Assembly (NCBI RefSeq): GCF_009827535.1 | Contig: NZ_WTYN01000002.1 | Coordinates: forward strand, 1-64,000 | DNA from: Qipengyuania oceanensis | GTDB taxonomy: Bacteria; Pseudomonadota; Alphaproteobacteria; Sphingomonadales; Sphingomonadaceae | Direction: 5' to 3' | Length of the DNA stretch: 64,000 nt | Part shown: piece by piece, positions 46,303-53,799 of the stretch | Layout: the number at the start of each line of letters is the position of its first letter | How positions within the stretch are numbered: position 1 is the first letter of the stretch | Notes under the pieces: generated by a model | What the model was told of the DNA's origin: nothing | The model's input: only the letters and a program-made list of their open reading frames with translations | Databases searched by the model: none | Translations under genes and position numbers: made by a program

Positions 46303-47424
46303 TTGCGGATCGCAGTCCTGAAAGAGCGTGCGGCCGGTGAACACCGTGTCGCGCTGACCCCCGAGACGGTGAAGAAATTTGCCGCCCTCGGCGCGACTGT
46401 CGCGGTCGAGCACGGGGCGGGTGCAGGGGCTTCGATCCCCGATGCGGCCTATGCCGAAGCCGGTGCCGAAGTCGTTTCCGCTGCCGATGCGGTGGCGAAC
46501 GCCGACATCGTGATGGGAGTCGTCGCGCCCGATCCGGCCCTGCTGGCGGGCGCGAGGCCGGGCGCATGGGTCGCGGCGACATTCGATCCGTTCCGTAACG
46601 GCGCGCTGGTCGAGAGCTATGCGAATGCGGGGCTCGAGGCATTGAGCATGGAGTTCATGCCGCGCATCACGCGTGCGCAGAGCATGGACGTGCTCTCCAG
46701 CCAGTCGAACCTCGCCGGTTACAAGGCGGTGCTGACCGCCGCGAACGAATACGGCCGCGCTTTTCCGATGATGATGACCGCTGCCGGCACGGTGCAGGCG
46801 GCCAGGGTGTTCGTGATGGGCGTGGGAGTGGCGGGCCTGCAGGCAATCGCCACGGCCAAGCGCCTCGGCGCGCAAGTCTCCGCGACCGACGTGCGTAGCG
46901 CCACGAAAGAGCAGATCCAGTCGCTCGGCGCGAAGCCCGTTTTCGTGGAGGAAGTGGCCGGTATCGAAGGCGAAGGCTCGGGCGGCTATGCCACCGAAAT
47001 GAGCGAGGAATACCAGGCCGCCCAAGCCAAGCTGGTCTCCGAGCATATCGCCAAGCAGGATATCGTGATCACCACCGCGCTCATCCCGGGCAAGCCCGCG
47101 CCGCGGCTTGTCTCCGACGCGCAGGTCGCGAGCATGAAGCCGGGCAGCGTGATCTTCGACCTCGCGGTCGCCCAAGGCGGGAATGTAGAGGGCTCGCGGC
47201 CGGACGAGGTGGTCGAGAAGCACGGGGTGAAGATCGTCGGCTATTCGAACACCGCCGGACACCTGGCGGCGGACGCATCGGCGCTTTATGCGCGCAATCT
47301 CTACAATTTTCTGTCGGCGTTCTGGGACGCCGAGGCAGGCAAGCCCGTGCTCGACGAAGAGATCGGCGATGCCGTGCGGCTGACGCAGGGTGGCAAGATC
47401 GTGAACGAGAGGCTTCAGGGGTGA
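46303..47424 (+). CDS. pntAA: Proton-translocating NAD(P) transhydrogenase subunit alpha, part 1
   Basis: The 373-residue soluble NAD-binding dI component. It begins MRIAVLKERAAGEHRVALTP, and has the MSMEFMPRITRAQSMDVLSSQSN family region (in part), VFVMGVGVAGLQAIATAKRLGA for NAD binding and the mobile loop near GYATEMSEEY. The TTG start at 46303 lacks a strong ribosome site and may be coupled to the upstream gene. The stop overlaps the next GTG. Confidence 0.94.
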   Translation: MRIAVLKERAAGEHRVALTPETVKKFAALGATVAVEHGAGAGASIPDAAYAEAGAEVVSAADAVANADIVMGVVAPDPALLAGARPGAWVAATFDPFRNGALVESYANAGLEALSMEFMPRITRAQSMDVLSSQSNLAGYKAVLTAANEYGRAFPMMMTAAGTVQAARVFVMGVGVAGLQAIATAKRLGAQVSATDVRSATKEQIQSLGAKPVFVEEVAGIEGEGSGGYATEMSEEYQAAQAKLVSEHIAKQDIVITTALIPGKPAPRLVSDAQVASMKPGSVIFDLAVAQGGNVEGSRPDEVVEKHGVKIVGYSNTAGHLAADASALYARNLYNFLSAFWDAEAGKPVLDEEIGDAVRLTQGGKIVNERLQG

Positions 47425-47807
47425 GGGCTTATGCCTCGGCCTTGGCGCTCGTTGCGATCCCGCTTGCGGGGTGCGAAACCCTGACATCGAAAGATCCTGC
47501 GCCGGTCCAGGCGTTATCGGGCGAATGGACAGTCGATCTGCGCCCCTCCTTCGAGGATGCTCCATATGACCAGCAGATGGTTCTGACGGTATCGCGGTCC
47601 GGCGAGATGACGGGGACATTTTACGGCAGCGAGATAAGCGAAGGCCGTGCGGGAGCCGGCCAAGGCCGCGTTTGTGCGGCATGGCGCACATTCGACAATA
47701 GCGGACCCTATCAGCATTCCGGCTGCCTCGAAGGGGATACCATCGTGGGCCAGAGCTGGAGCGAGGGTCGCGACTTCGTCCTGCCATGGACCGCCAGAAG
47801 GGACTGA
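47421..47807 (+). CDS. Small lipoprotein between transhydrogenase subunits
   Basis: A 128-residue protein with a lipobox (PLAGC at Cys18) and a single beta-rich domain (LSGEWTVDLRP, MVLTVSRSGEMTGTFYGS, GRVCAAWRTFDNSG). GTG 47421 overlaps the pntAA stop in GTGA. It is not a subunit of known transhydrogenases. Family not recognised; similar small domains are often annotated as hypothetical. Confidence 0.7.
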   Translation: MRAYASALALVAIPLAGCETLTSKDPAPVQALSGEWTVDLRPSFEDAPYDQQMVLTVSRSGEMTGTFYGSEISEGRAGAGQGRVCAAWRTFDNSGPYQHSGCLEGDTIVGQSWSEGRDFVLPWTARRD

Positions 47808-47808
47808 C

Positions 47809-48093
47809 ATGGACTTCATCAGCATCCTATCGATCTTCGTGCTGGCGTGTTTCGTCGGCTATTACGTGGTCTGGTCGGTCACGCCCGCGCTGCACACGCC
47901 GCTGATGGCGGTGACCAATGCGATTTCCTCGGTGATCATCGTCGGCGCGCTCATCGCGGCGGCGGCGGCGGATGTGCCGGGGGCGAAGTGGCTGGGGCTG
48001 CTTGGCATCGTGCTCGCCAGCGTGAATATCTTCGGCGGTTTTGCGGTGACGGCGAGAATGCTCGCCATGTACAAGAAGAAGGAGAAGAAGTGA
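47809..48093 (+). CDS. pntAB: Transhydrogenase subunit alpha, part 2 (membrane)
   Basis: A 94-residue membrane component with three helices (ISILSIFVLACFVGYYVVW, PLMAVTNAISSVIIVGALIA, LGLLGIVLASVNIFGGFAVT). The HTPLMAVTNAISSVI and NIFGGFAVTARML motifs are family signatures. The C-terminus is KKKEKK. The stop overlaps a pntB ATG in TGATG. Confidence 0.94.
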   Translation: MDFISILSIFVLACFVGYYVVWSVTPALHTPLMAVTNAISSVIIVGALIAAAAADVPGAKWLGLLGIVLASVNIFGGFAVTARMLAMYKKKEKK

Positions 48094-49745
48094 TGGGCTC
48101 GCTCTTCTCCGTCATCCCAGCGAAAGCTGGGATCCGCCTCGGCACGCTCCGCGCTATATGGACAGCGATCCCAGCTTTCGCTGGGATGACGATGTGGGCC
48201 ACCCCCGCCCACGCCTCGACCGGCGAGGCAGTGAACCCGTGGGTCGCGCTGGCCTATCTCGTGTCGGGCGTGTTCTTCATCCTCGCGCTGCGTGGCCTCT
48301 CGAGCCCTGCGACGAGCCGGACGGGCAACCGCTTCGGCATGATCGGGATGGCTGTAGCGGTGGTGACGACGCTGGTGACGCATTTCCCGTGGATCAGACC
48401 GGATGCGGCGAAGTGCGCGCAAATTCGGAATGTTTCTAGCGATGGTTCGACGTTCGCCTTCGACGGGCCAGGGCCGTGTGGTTACATGTCATACCCGGAC
48501 TGGTTCAGCGCAGGCGAAATCCTCATCGCCATCGTCATCGGTGCGATCATCGGGATCACCATCGCCCGCCGCATCGCGATGACCGCGATGCCTGAGCTGG
48601 TCGCGGCGTTCCACTCGCTGGTCGGCCTCGCTGCGGTGCTGGTGGGCTGGGCGGCCTATCTCAATCCGGGCGCATTCGGGCTGCTGGTCGACGGCGGCAT
48701 CGGAGCGGTCTCCAAGGTCGAGATGGGCCTCGGCATCGCCATCGGCGCGATCACCTTCTCCGGCTCGGTCATCGCTTTCGCCAAGCTTTCGGGTCGGATG
48801 AGCGGTTCGCCGATCCTGCTGCCCGCGCGGCACGTCATCAATCTCGGCACGCTGGCGGCGATCATTGTGCTGACCGCGCTCTTCGCCATGGCCGGCCCCG
48901 CCGAGACCATGCCGTTGATCGTCGCGCTCACGGTGCTGGCCTTCCTTATCGGCTTCCTGTTGATCATCCCCATCGGCGGGGCGGACATGCCGGTCGTCGT
49001 CTCGATGCTGAACAGCTATTCGGGCTGGGCGGCAGCGGCGATGGGCTTCACGCTCGGCAACACGGCGATGATCATCACCGGCGCGCTGGTCGGCTCTTCG
49101 GGCGCGATCCTCAGCTACATCATGTGCCGCGCGATGAACCGCAGTTTCATCTCCGTGATCGCGGGCGGGTTCGGCGCGGATGCCGGCGCGGGCGGGGGCG
49201 AGGCCAAGGAACAGCGCCCATACAAGCAGGGCAGCGCGGCCGATGCGGCCTTCATGCTCGAACAGGCGGAAAAGGTCATCATCATCCCCGGCTACGGCAT
49301 GGCGGTGGCGCAGGCGCAGCACGCCTTGCGCGAGATGGCCGATATCCTCGAGGAAAAGGGCGTCGAGGTGAAATATGCCATCCACCCCGTCGCGGGCCGG
49401 ATGCCGGGGCACATGAACGTGCTCCTCGCCGAAGCGCAGGTGCCGTACGAGAACGTGTTCGAGCTGGAGGACATCAACTCCGAATTCGCGCAGGCCGACG
49501 TTGCCTTCATCATCGGCGCGAACGATGTGGTCAATCCGGCGGCCAAGACCGACAAGTCCAGCCCCATCTACGGCATGCCCGTGTTCGACGTCGATAAGGC
49601 CAAGCAGGTCTTCTTCATCAAGCGTAGCATGGGCGGCGTGGGCTATGCTGGCGTCGACAACGACGTCTTCTACATGGACCAAACCATGATGCTGCTCGCC
49701 GATGCGAAGAAGATGGTCGAGGAAATCGTCAAGGCGCTGGACTGA
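48093..49745 (+). CDS. pntB: Transhydrogenase subunit beta with repeat-derived N-terminus
   Basis: Membrane helices of dII plus the NADPH-binding dIII (IIIPGYGMAVAQAQHALREM, HPVAGRMPGHMNVLLAEA, IIGANDVVNPAA, VDNDVFY). From ATG 48093 it is 550 residues, but codons 7-33 are translated from an inverted repeat (VIPAKAGIR ... AIPAFAGMT). A native start at ATG 48186 or 48192 is as likely. A loop of about 30 residues with two Cys (AAKCAQIRN to GPGPCGYMSYPDW) lies between helices and is not in E. coli PntB. Confidence 0.92.
   Translation: MGSLFSVIPAKAGIRLGTLRAIWTAIPAFAGMTMWATPAHASTGEAVNPWVALAYLVSGVFFILALRGLSSPATSRTGNRFGMIGMAVAVVTTLVTHFPWIRPDAAKCAQIRNVSSDGSTFAFDGPGPCGYMSYPDWFSAGEILIAIVIGAIIGITIARRIAMTAMPELVAAFHSLVGLAAVLVGWAAYLNPGAFGLLVDGGIGAVSKVEMGLGIAIGAITFSGSVIAFAKLSGRMSGSPILLPARHVINLGTLAAIIVLTALFAMAGPAETMPLIVALTVLAFLIGFLLIIPIGGADMPVVVSMLNSYSGWAAAAMGFTLGNTAMIITGALVGSSGAILSYIMCRAMNRSFISVIAGGFGADAGAGGGEAKEQRPYKQGSAADAAFMLEQAEKVIIIPGYGMAVAQAQHALREMADILEEKGVEVKYAIHPVAGRMPGHMNVLLAEAQVPYENVFELEDINSEFAQADVAFIIGANDVVNPAAKTDKSSPIYGMPVFDVDKAKQVFFIKRSMGGVGYAGVDNDVFYMDQTMMLLADAKKMVEEIVKALD
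48111..48190. repeat. 80-bp dispersed inverted repeat inside the 5' end of pntB
   Basis: Perfect inverted arms of 24 bases at 48111-48134 and 48167-48190 (each containing CCCAGCGAAAGCTGGG, itself a hairpin) flank a 32-base centre. This is the widespread GTCATCCCAGCGAAAGCTGG type element, whose translation gives the VIPAKAG peptide. It keeps the pntB frame open. Confidence 0.9.
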
Positions 49746-49840: not shown

Positions 49841-51034
49841 ATGAAGACATTGACCTTTGCCGCCGTGCTGCTGGCGAGCGCATCGCCGCTGCTGGCCGAA
49901 ACGCACACGATCGCGCCGGGCGACGATGCTGCCGAGCGCCTGCAGGAAGCGCTCATCATGGCAGAGCCGGGGGACGAGATCGTCATCGGCGCGGGTCGGT
50001 ACACCCTCACCGACGGGCTCAGCCTCGATGTCGACAACGTGACGGTGCGCGGCGAGGGGATGGACGCCACCATCCTCGACTTCTCCGGCCAGCAGGGCGC
50101 GGGCGAGGGGCTGCTGGTCACCAGCGACAATGTCACCTTGCGCGATTTCGCGATGGAGAACACCGCGGGCGACGGAATCAAGTCCAAGGGCGCGGACAAC
50201 ATCATCTACCATCGGATCCGCGTCGCCTGGACTGGCGGACCGGACCCTGAAAACGGCGCTTACGGCATCTACCCGGTCGAAAGCACCAACGTGCTGGTCG
50301 ACGGGGCGCAGGTCTCCGGCGCGTCCGATGCCGGCATCTATGTCGGACAGAGCGACCGCATCACCGTCCGCAACTCGCTCGCCGAAAGCAATGTCGCCGG
50401 GATCGAGATCGAGAACAGCCGCAACGCGGTGGTCGAGAACAACATGGTCACCCGCAATACCGGCGGCATTCTGATCTTCGACCTGCCGAACCTGCCGGTG
50501 ATGGGCGGCGGCAACGTCCTCGTCCGCCGCAATCTGGTGGTCGACAACGACACGCCCAATTTCGCGCCGCCGGGCAATATCGTCGCCGGCGTGCGCCGCG
50601 GTACCGGGATCATGGTGATGGCGAACGATGCGGTCACGGTGGAAGGCAACGTGCTCGACAACAACCCCACCGCCGGGATCATGGTGATCGCCTATCCGCA
50701 GCCTTACGACGACAAGACCTACAACCCCTATCCGCGCCGCGTGGCGATCGGCGAAAACTTCGACAATCGAAGCGGTTACGAGCCGCAGTTCGAAGGGGCT
50801 GACATGCTGCTCGCGGCATTCGGCGGCCAGCTGCCGACCGTGATGTGGGACGGGCTGGGCGAAAATGCCATCACGGTCGTGCCCAGTCTGCAGGGCTGGA
50901 ACGTCGGCGTGACGGGACAGGGCGTCGGCCTCGAAGGGGCTAGCCCGTCGCCGGCCACCTTCGCCGCCTTTGCCGATGCGCTCGACCGCAGCCAGGTCGG
51001 CGCAACGGCGGATCTGGAGGCGCGGCTGAAGTGA
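49841..51034 (+). CDS. Exported parallel beta-helix protein (TIGR03805-like)
   Basis: A 397-residue protein with signal peptide (MKTLTFAAVLLASASPLLA) and a right-handed beta-helix built of repeated turns (DNVTVRGEGMDATILDF, DNVTLRDFAMENTAGDGI, DRITVRNSLAESNVAGIEI, NAVVENNMVTRNTGGILI). It fits the family known as half of a recurrent gene pair with diheme cytochromes such as SO_2930; the pair has no known function. AAGGGAGAG precedes ATG 49841. The stop overlaps the cytochrome GTG. Confidence 0.83.
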   Translation: MKTLTFAAVLLASASPLLAETHTIAPGDDAAERLQEALIMAEPGDEIVIGAGRYTLTDGLSLDVDNVTVRGEGMDATILDFSGQQGAGEGLLVTSDNVTLRDFAMENTAGDGIKSKGADNIIYHRIRVAWTGGPDPENGAYGIYPVESTNVLVDGAQVSGASDAGIYVGQSDRITVRNSLAESNVAGIEIENSRNAVVENNMVTRNTGGILIFDLPNLPVMGGGNVLVRRNLVVDNDTPNFAPPGNIVAGVRRGTGIMVMANDAVTVEGNVLDNNPTAGIMVIAYPQPYDDKTYNPYPRRVAIGENFDNRSGYEPQFEGADMLLAAFGGQLPTVMWDGLGENAITVVPSLQGWNVGVTGQGVGLEGASPSPATFAAFADALDRSQVGATADLEARLK

Positions 51035-52035
51035 AACGCGCCGGGGTCGCCCTTGTCCTTTCCATTGCCGCGCTCGCCGGAGCCTTCATGGCGCGCGCGA
51101 CGCCGATCGGCAGCGTGAACCAGCAGGCCGTGCTCGAGGGAATGCCCGCGCAACTGAGCGACTATGGTTTCTTTGCCGATGCGGTCGCGCAGGTGCCGGG
51201 CAAGAGCGTGACGCCCTATCGCCTCAACACGCCGCTCTATTCCGACGGGGCCGAGAAACTGCGCTTTGTCTACTTGCCGCCGGGCGCGCAGGCTAAGGCC
51301 GATGGCGAAAACCTGCTCGACCTTCCGGTCGGGGCTGCGCTCATCAAGACCTTTGCCTTCGGCGAAGGCGACGATCGCCGCCTGATCGAAACCCGCGTTC
51401 TGCTGCACCGCGCCGACGGCTGGGTGGCACTGCCCTATATCTGGGACGAGGCACAGACCGACGCGAAGCTATCCATCGCGGGCGGGCGGCGCGATGTCGT
51501 GACCCCTGCTGGCAAGACGATCAGCTACCGCGTGCCGAACAAGAACCAGTGCAAGGAATGCCACGGCCTCAACGGCGCCGTCATCCCGATCGGACCCAAG
51601 GCGCGCAATCTGTCGCGCGATTGGCTCTCGGCGCTGCATGATGCGGGCAGGCTCGACATGGTGCCTGAAGTCGCCGCCGGCCTTCCGGTCTGGGAAGCCC
51701 GCGCCAGTGCCGATCTCGACAGCGCGGCGCGCGGCTATCTCGACGTCAATTGCGCGCATTGCCACCGGCCGGGCGCGACCGCATCCAACTCCGGGCTGGA
51801 CCTGCGCTGGGAGCAGACGGATCCCAAGGCGATCGGGATCATGAAAAGACCCGTCGCAGCCGGCCGCGGCGCGGGCGGGCATTTGTTCGACATCGTGCCA
51901 GGAAAGCCCGAGGAATCGATCATGACCTATCGCATGGGCAATCTCGAAGGCGGGGTGGCCATGCCAGAACTCGGCAAGTCGACGGTCGACGAGGACGGCC
52001 TGAAGGTCGTGCGCGACTGGATTGCCGGCCTGTGA
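51031..52035 (+). CDS. Diheme c-type cytochrome (SO_2930/TIGR03806-like)
   Basis: A 334-residue exported protein with signal peptide ending about ARA. Its N-terminal half is a family domain without heme (FADAVAQVPGKSVTPYRLNTPLYSDGAEK region). The C-terminal half has two heme sites, CKECH and CAHCH, and a likely axial Met in GGVAMPELG. GTG start coupled to the beta-helix gene. It is probably a periplasmic redox partner or enzyme; the substrate is not known. Confidence 0.85.
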   Translation: MKRAGVALVLSIAALAGAFMARATPIGSVNQQAVLEGMPAQLSDYGFFADAVAQVPGKSVTPYRLNTPLYSDGAEKLRFVYLPPGAQAKADGENLLDLPVGAALIKTFAFGEGDDRRLIETRVLLHRADGWVALPYIWDEAQTDAKLSIAGGRRDVVTPAGKTISYRVPNKNQCKECHGLNGAVIPIGPKARNLSRDWLSALHDAGRLDMVPEVAAGLPVWEARASADLDSAARGYLDVNCAHCHRPGATASNSGLDLRWEQTDPKAIGIMKRPVAAGRGAGGHLFDIVPGKPEESIMTYRMGNLEGGVAMPELGKSTVDEDGLKVVRDWIAGL

Positions 52036-53003
52036 AACTGTTCGGCAGGATGCTGCTTGGACTGGTCGCGCTCCTCGTGGTCGCGTTTCTCGTGCTGCGG
52101 GTGCCGGATACCGATCCGGCGGAAATGCGCGCGAAATACGGCGCTGCGCCGTCGCAATTCCTGACGCTCGACGACGGGCAGGTGGTTCACCTGCGCGACG
52201 AAGGGCCGAAGGATGCGCTGCCGGTGGTCCTGCTCCACGGCTCCAATGCGGACCTCCACACCTGGCAGCCCTGGGTCGATCGTCTGAAGGCCGATTACCG
52301 GGTCATCCGCTACGACCAGATCGGCCATGGGCTGACGGGGCCGTCGGTATCGGGAAACTACGAGCGCGCCGAGTTCGAGAAGACCATCGACCAGGTCGCC
52401 GGCAAGCTGGGGCTCGAGCGCTTCGTGCTCGCTGGCAACTCGATGGGCGGCGGGATCGCGATGGGCTACGCGATCGATCACCCGGAACGGCTGGCAGGCC
52501 TGGTGCTGGTGGACGCCGCAGGGGCCGACATCCAGCGCGAAGGCGGCGGAAATCTCGCTTTCACGTTGGCCGGCATGCCCGTCGTCGGCGATGTGCTGAG
52601 CCAGCTGCTGCCGCGCAGCCTGGTCGACAAGAGCTTCCGCCAGAGCGTTTCCAACCAGGCGATCGTCACCGACGAGGCGGTCGACCGCTACTGGGAACTG
52701 GCGCGCTATCCCGGAAACCGCGGTGCCACGCGCAAGCGCTTCTCCGCCCCCCGCATTCCCTTCGCCGAGGCGCAGTTGCGCGCAGTAAGCGTGCCGACGC
52801 TGGTCATGTGGGGCGAGGAGGATTCGCTGATCCGGGTCGAGGCAGCGCGCTGGTACGACGGACTGCTGCCGAACAGCACCCTCGTGGTTTATCCGGGTAT
52901 CGGCCATATTCCGATGGAGGAAGCGCCGGACCGCTCGGCTTCGGATCTTCGCAAGTTCCTCTCCGGGATAGAGCGAGAAGCTCCGTCATCGCACGGGCTT
53001 TGA
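52032..53003 (+). CDS. Membrane-anchored alpha/beta hydrolase
   Basis: A 323-residue protein with an N-terminal hydrophobic anchor (MLLGLVALLVVAFLVL). It has HGSNADLHTWQPW, DQIGHGLTGP, the nucleophile GNSMGGG, an acid in WGEEDSLI and the catalytic His in GIGHIPMEE. The fold resembles meta-cleavage-product hydrolases and haloperoxidase-like proteins. GTG 52032 overlaps the cytochrome stop, so it is the third coupled gene of this unit and probably shares its pathway. Confidence 0.85.
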   Translation: MKLFGRMLLGLVALLVVAFLVLRVPDTDPAEMRAKYGAAPSQFLTLDDGQVVHLRDEGPKDALPVVLLHGSNADLHTWQPWVDRLKADYRVIRYDQIGHGLTGPSVSGNYERAEFEKTIDQVAGKLGLERFVLAGNSMGGGIAMGYAIDHPERLAGLVLVDAAGADIQREGGGNLAFTLAGMPVVGDVLSQLLPRSLVDKSFRQSVSNQAIVTDEAVDRYWELARYPGNRGATRKRFSAPRIPFAEAQLRAVSVPTLVMWGEEDSLIRVEAARWYDGLLPNSTLVVYPGIGHIPMEEAPDRSASDLRKFLSGIEREAPSSHGL

Positions 53004-53103: not shown

Positions 53104-53799
53104 TTGCGGAAACTAGGCCTGATCGGGGGTATGAGCTGGGTCTCGACCTACACCTATTACAATCGCATCAATCACATGGTCCAGAAGCGCGCCACGCCGA
53201 TGTCGAGCGCGCCGCTGCTGATCGAAAGCCTCGACTTTGCGCCGCTTTACGGGCTCAAGACGCAGGAAGACTGGGATCGTGCGGCGGGCATCCTGATCGA
53301 TAGCGCGAAGCGCCTGGCCGATGCCGGCGCCGGTTGCCTGCTGATCTGCGCCAATTCCATGCACAAGATCTACGACAAGGTGGCCGGGGCAGTCGACGTG
53401 CCCGTGCTCCACATCGCGGATTGCGTGGGCGAGAAGATGAAGCAGGCCGAGGCGACCGAGGCTGCCTTGCTCGGCACGCGTTACGTGATGACCGAAAGTT
53501 TCTATCGTCAGCGGCTGGTCAAGCACGGCGTGGACCTCGTCCCGCCCGACATGGACATCGTCGAGATGGTCGACGGGATCATCTACAAGGAACTGATGCT
53601 GGGCAAGGTCACGCGGGATGCGGAGCGGGCGCTGCGCACGATCATCACGCGCAAGGAACAGGACGGGGCGCAGGCCATCGTGCTTGCTTGCACCGAATTG
53701 GAAATGGTCGTCGATATCGACGCCAATGTGCTGCCGATCTTTGATTCCACTACGATCCACTGCGAGGCCGCAACCGACTGGATCATGGGCGGAGACTGA
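53104..53799 (+). CDS. Aspartate/glutamate racemase family protein
   Basis: A 231-residue PLP-independent racemase fold. It begins MRKLGLIGGMSWVSTYTYYN and has the two catalytic Cys regions, LLICANSMHK and LACTELEMVV. The GGMSW start and the ANSMHK motif fit the YgeA/aspartate racemase group with broad substrates. TTG 53104 follows AGGGGGC. Standalone. Confidence 0.88.
   Translation: MRKLGLIGGMSWVSTYTYYNRINHMVQKRATPMSSAPLLIESLDFAPLYGLKTQEDWDRAAGILIDSAKRLADAGAGCLLICANSMHKIYDKVAGAVDVPVLHIADCVGEKMKQAEATEAALLGTRYVMTESFYRQRLVKHGVDLVPPDMDIVEMVDGIIYKELMLGKVTRDAERALRTIITRKEQDGAQAIVLACTELEMVVDIDANVLPIFDSTTIHCEAATDWIMGGD

Follow-up and report, generated by a model that had tools for sequence, protein, structure and literature searches.

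Do the exported beta-helix protein, the diheme cytochrome and the membrane-anchored hydrolase encoded by three overlapping genes of Qipengyuania oceanensis constitute one periplasmic system, and what chemistry might they carry out? The genes are found in a stretch of 64,000 nucleotides (contig NZ_WTYN01000002.1, hereafter the window) and are all located on the forward strand. The first (49841-51034, 397 aa) encodes a beta-helix protein of family TIGR03805 ('beta_helix_1') with a Sec-type signal peptide and an AlgE/AlgG/NosD-like fold. The second (51031-52035, 334 aa, GTG start) encodes an exported diheme cytochrome of the SO2930 family, TIGR03806, and the third (52032-53003, 323 aa, GTG start) a membrane-anchored, PlaF-like alpha/beta hydrolase. 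We confirmed all three genes, their frames and coordinates as given in a preliminary description of this DNA, together with the GTGA sequence at both joints, where the GTG start of the next gene overlaps the TGA stop of the previous one. Overlaps of the NTGA type are kept in 87/130 beta-helix/cytochrome joints and in 24/35 cytochrome/hydrolase joints of relatives, and are thus not a chance feature. No sites resembling a promoter or terminator were found above chance by a sequence scan between the three genes. A hydrophobic, signal-peptide-like stretch opens both the beta-helix protein and the cytochrome, and the N-terminal hydrophobic helix of the hydrolase (Kyte-Doolittle 2.6 at residues 7-25) is stronger than either.

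A conserved pair and a lineage-specific hydrolase

The first two genes had been recognized as the TIGR03805 and TIGR03806 pair, and both products indeed pass the curated NCBIfam cut-offs: the beta-helix protein scores 415.5 bits against a cut-off of 141.5 over the full profile (1-314) and the cytochrome 357.6 bits against 313.3. As in the family descriptions, the two genes are adjacent, exported and in the same order. The window pair differs by the coupled hydrolase downstream, and the TIGR description names neither a function nor any kinship with cytochrome P460. In 147 genomes of the order, the beta-helix gene was located immediately upstream and on the same strand for 73/73 cytochromes, and in 398 genomes of the phylum it adjoined every cytochrome above the cut-off. 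In six genomes of this phylum sample (G460, G356, G424, G380, G223 and G334) the pair forms one open frame. Among sequenced species we found at least 575 pair loci, ranging from Proteobacteria to Bacteroidetes and Planctomycetes; 80 of these were examined, including Flavobacterium and Cytophaga-type Bacteroidetes and a MAG of Isosphaeraceae, and 76 of the 80 carried the upstream beta-helix gene. The conserved unit is therefore the first two genes, not the trio.

The distribution of the hydrolase is far narrower. It is found directly downstream of the pair in 21 of the 71 pair genomes of the order, all from the window's own family, and linkage outside this family was seen in none of the pair genomes examined. 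Elsewhere in the order it is unlinked from the pair or absent, with 10 pair genomes devoid of the hydrolase family and 7 hydrolase genomes devoid of the pair. Similarly, the hydrolase was present at 25 of the 80 loci examined (of at least 575), almost all of them in genomes assigned by name to Erythrobacteraceae genera and two in MAGs named only Sphingomonadaceae; Pelagerythrobacter, Citromicrobium and MAGs named as Novosphingobium carry the same locus without it. On these linkage counts we rejected the view that the trio is a general system. The hydrolase was added to the operon in one lineage and is linked to the pair only in this bacterial group, and its earlier description as the third member of the system fails beyond Erythrobacteraceae-type genomes. 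Absence of the hydrolase from the pair in nearly all relatives had been named as grounds for giving up the trio; such absence is largely what we observed, yet the operon structure is kept inside the clade.

A functional link between hydrolase and pair is possible, given this kept structure and the co-occurrence of the two when unlinked. In within-family tables that leave out the linked genomes, the unlinked hydrolase family co-occurs with the pair (Mantel-Haenszel odds ratio 11, p 7e-8), and also when the window's own family is removed (odds ratio 8, p 2e-4). These statistics ignore lifestyle and kinship inside families, and a genus within the window's own family is an exception to the rule, so we treat the co-occurrence as a lead, not proof. 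Together with the cytochrome/hydrolase overlap conserved in the clade, it would suit a dedicated periplasmic degradation route in which beta-helix protein, cytochrome and hydrolase work one after another on a single polymer or lipid that bears an ester. We consider this route unlikely, since linkage is confined to one family and each partner also occurs without the other.

The hydrolase itself matches Abhydrolase_1 in Pfam and only generic alpha/beta-hydrolase entries in NCBIfam. Its Ser/Asp/His motifs are intact, as previously noted, with Ser137, Asp264 and His292 located in the expected motifs. The nearest solved structure by sequence is 6i8w (103 bits), the inner-membrane phospholipase A PlaF of P. 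aeruginosa, which has a periplasmic catalytic domain and the triad S137/D258/H286 (PMC9132575). The alignment includes the N-terminal membrane helix and the triad. In contrast to these likenesses, the score is only 103 bits, members of the hydrolase family in other proteobacteria score higher, and phospholipase activity is putative here.

The genomic surroundings of the pair vary among lineages. In many Erythrobacteraceae, as in the window (46303-49745 and 53104-53799), the pair is flanked by pntAB (transhydrogenase) and a gene of the Asp/Glu racemase family, a setting also found without the hydrolase. Outside the window's own family, TonB-dependent receptors and TetR or AraC regulators often adjoin the pair, which fits an inducible, imported substrate. 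In two genomes (L071 and L072; G116 and G140) the neighbors, judged from sequence alone, resemble maleylacetoacetate isomerase, MarR and 4-hydroxyphenylpyruvate dioxygenase genes, which hints at a setting close to tyrosine catabolism. A second SO2930 cytochrome gene is found near the fused beta-helix/cytochrome gene at G460:C29:30820-34538 (L117) and in G356 (L118). At G143:C1:1829834-1830679 the beta-helix gene is interrupted by an in-frame TGA, possibly a pseudogene or a sequencing error, and the cytochrome and hydrolase look intact.

Two variant architectures were also observed. Four loci (L143-L146, in G450, G011, G478 and G372) encode a TIGR03805-like beta-helix protein, 505-524 aa long, with a C-terminal CxxCH cytochrome domain of its own, and the fusion gene adjoins a gene for a CCP/MauG-family diheme protein; 3 of the 4 also encode a c-type cytochrome, a regulator of the AraC type and a TonB-dependent receptor. 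At L139:6869-10459 and L141:5380-12489 a distant SO2930-type module follows PQQ glucose/sorbosone dehydrogenase domains; the fused proteins measure 1196 and 2369 aa. The earlier idea of an exported redox unit thus stands for the pair, supported by constant adjacency, gene fusions and the parallel variant in which the partner is a MauG-type diheme protein; it does not extend to the hydrolase as a general third member. Literature on SO2930, SO_2931, PA4926 and PA4927 yielded no phenotype, substrate or expression for the pair. The SO_2931 of that literature is an outer-membrane multiheme cytochrome and not the beta-helix partner.

The polar ladder of the beta-helix protein

The beta-helix protein was modeled with high confidence (AlphaFold2, pLDDT 94.6). 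The closest folds identified by VIA were the AlgE4/AlgE6 epimerase modules (Z 33), followed by RbmB (30), NosD (28) and AlgG (27). When scored over 65 sequences from Alphaproteobacteria to Bacteroidetes, the protein displayed an invariant polar ladder. Part of it is encoded at 50180-50413 of the forward strand (Lys114, Trp130, Asn138, Tyr141, Tyr144, Asp163, Tyr167, Gln170, Glu189 and Glu191), and Asn192, Asn206, Asn231, Asn236 and Asn240 are further invariant members. The same 65 sequences contained no invariant His, Cys or Met. A polar ladder of this composition is consistent with a groove for substrate, and speaks against both copper binding and the known type of epimerase catalysis.

Accordingly, copper binding by the beta-helix protein was rejected. 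Alginate C5-epimerases carry a catalytic, His-containing DPH-type motif. The window protein has no DPH and, with no invariant His among the 65 sequences, membership in the AlgE/AlgG group was rejected. The fold is shared with AlgE4, AlgE6, AlgG and the lyase RbmB (Z 27-33 over about 290 residues, VIA), but identity is limited to about 14-20% and both an invariant His and the DPH-type motif are missing. NosD membership was likewise rejected (TIGR04247, 48.9 bits against a cut-off of 300), with the fold alone in common.

Likeness of the N-terminal heme domain to cytochrome P460

The cytochrome (AlphaFold2 model, pLDDT 89.8) contains two CxxCH motifs, at residues 174-178 and 241-245. The second belongs to a C-terminal class I cytochrome c domain (51751-51963, forward strand; Pfam CBB3/Cytochrom_C), in which Met311, the only invariant Met of the protein, is the likely axial ligand of heme 2. 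The first, carrying heme 1, lies in an N-terminal domain of about residues 36-199 (51136-51627, forward strand). Lys106, Glu120, Arg122, Trp131, both CxxCH motifs and Met311 are invariant in 67/67 relatives and in the fused variants, and remain unchanged in a sugar-dehydrogenase fusion with as little as 29% identity.

Structural comparison of the N-terminal domain with VIA returned cytochrome P460 or c'-beta for all of the top 12 matches (Z 7.3-5.3; the next were unrelated, at 3.9 or lower), all of them below the Z of 8 under which a match can reflect a common arrangement or accident. Foldseek alone gave no match under E 0.001 for the cytochrome model. As the VIA scores were possibly accidental, a sequence comparison was run, in which 16 P460 proteins, collected from genomes by PF16694, were compared with 67 SO2930 cytochromes. 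Aligned profile against profile (hhalign), the two groups matched at E 7.7e-6 and a probability of 84% on the motif FPxGTxLxK. The score between the N-terminal domain and P460 (34.0) exceeded those of 129 other families (next 30.2) and of 200/200 column shuffles. With CxxCH removed, P460 proteins still occupied ranks 1-3 for the N-terminal domain HMM, and the P460 HMM in turn placed SO2930 proteins at ranks 1-3 of the non-P460 proteins. PF16694 itself matched 29/67 relatives at E<1 (best 1.9e-4), mostly at the Lys strand, one match running from the strand through CxxCH. None of six relatives scanned singly passed its gathering cut-off (27 bits), no PF16694 match was found in the window genome, and the N-terminal domain HMM reached no P460 chain among PDB sequences.

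Taken together, the predicted fold, the profile match that outscored its controls and the sub-threshold Pfam matches make it probable that the N-terminal domain belongs with the cytochrome P460/c'-beta fold. It resembles this superfamily (PF16694) in its predicted fold, the Lys strand motif, one CxxCH heme and no invariant distal ligand. Unlike the known members, which are single-domain and single-heme, SO2930 cytochromes possess a second cytochrome c domain and a beta-helix partner, and fall below the Pfam cut-off. The relationship was not described in the literature examined, nor was it foreseen in the preliminary description; our searches for literature linking P460 or MauG with a beta-helix found nothing relevant.

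The P460 likeness brings specific residues into focus. Lys106 (51346-51348, forward strand) is placed by the hhalign register on the P460 cross-linking Lys, aligning with the Lys106 that is cross-linked to heme in the P460 of Nitrosomonas sp. AL212 (NsP460; 6amg/6w6n sequences). The corresponding residue is Lys70 in NeP460 and Lys78 in McP460 (Table 2, PMC11928373). Judged by this alignment, there is about an even chance that Lys106 is cross-linked to heme. Glu120 (51388-51390, forward strand) is a candidate distal-pocket carboxylate, a role we put forward as a hypothesis; forced hhalign alignments were unstable for the P460 counterparts of both Glu120 and Trp131, and their register is not fixed.

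Members of the superfamily are documented to oxidize hydroxylamine and to bind NO (PMC11928373), and the structural match of the N-terminal domain covers the P460/c'-beta fold. One could accordingly picture a stress defence, in which NO, hydroxylamine or peroxide is bound or removed at the P460/c'-beta-type heme, the C-terminal heme relays electrons and the beta-helix protein only anchors the unit to surface glycans. The strictly conserved polar ladder, the TonB-dependent receptors and the TetR/AraC regulators better suit a role in nutrition or modification, and no nitrogen-oxide genes were seen beside the pair in the loci read. Such a defence role thus appears improbable to us.

Another proposal comes from the variant loci, where the partner of the beta-helix protein is a diheme protein of the CCP/MauG family. 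Membership of the window cytochrome in this family was rejected for want of a PF03150 match (across SO2930 relatives PF03150 is marginal, 8/67, best E 0.11), and SO2930 cytochromes, unlike MauG/CCP diheme peroxidases, match P460 plus cytochrome c. The heme protein could still oxidatively modify and thereby activate the beta-helix protein, in the way that MauG or MbnH act on their partner proteins, a scheme that would account for fixed 1:1 pairing, fusions and the invariant Tyr and Trp residues of the ladder. In the MauG-linked beta-helix variant, Asp163, Tyr141, Tyr167, Glu189 and Glu191 are kept, but Trp130 and Lys114 are not. Moreover, protein modification is not known for the P460 family and the same cytochrome module is also found behind sugar-dehydrogenase domains. 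We regard maturation of this kind as quite unlikely.

A putative periplasmic redox unit

P460-type heme domains have an open coordination side. Heme 1 shows no second ligand that is invariant, whereas heme 2 has Met311, and we therefore propose heme 1 as the reaction site and heme 2 as the electron exit. The SO2930 modules behind PQQ sugar-dehydrogenase domains, together with the CxxCH-bearing beta-helix lineage paired with CCP/MauG proteins, suggest that a substrate module forms the core of a redox unit, although the former would also suit a plain electron acceptor. We give roughly equal odds for and against a redox unit of two proteins in the periplasm or outer membrane, composed of a P460-like heme oxidant and a beta-helix scaffold, to which a hydrolase was added in Erythrobacteraceae.

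In such a unit the two proteins would form a complex. The beta-helix protein, with its alginate-epimerase-like fold, would be a non-redox scaffold or enzyme whose conserved polar groove binds the substrate. Heme 1 would have an open distal side, with a predicted cross-link to Lys106 and Glu120 as predicted proton acceptor, and this P460-like heme would most likely oxidize a substrate held or released by the beta-helix protein. The C-terminal cytochrome c domain (His245/Met311) would then hand electrons to the respiratory chain. In Erythrobacteraceae, the PlaF-like hydrolase, anchored in the inner membrane and facing the periplasm, would probably remove acyl groups from that substrate or from membrane lipids in contact with it.

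The pair is common, already known to curated families and so far without a function. Correcting the trio leaves the hydrolase as an addition of one lineage, and placing the cytochrome near P460 provides a catalytic hypothesis that is directly testable by spectroscopy. We suggest, tentatively and with considerable doubt, that SO2930 cytochromes are a large unrecognized diheme branch of P460 with a Lys-heme cross-link and that, together with the beta-helix protein, they make up a new type of periplasmic oxidase, widespread outside nitrifiers, whose substrate is glycan-like or otherwise imported by way of TonB. If true, a rare heme-lysine cofactor would reach far beyond ammonia and methane oxidizers.
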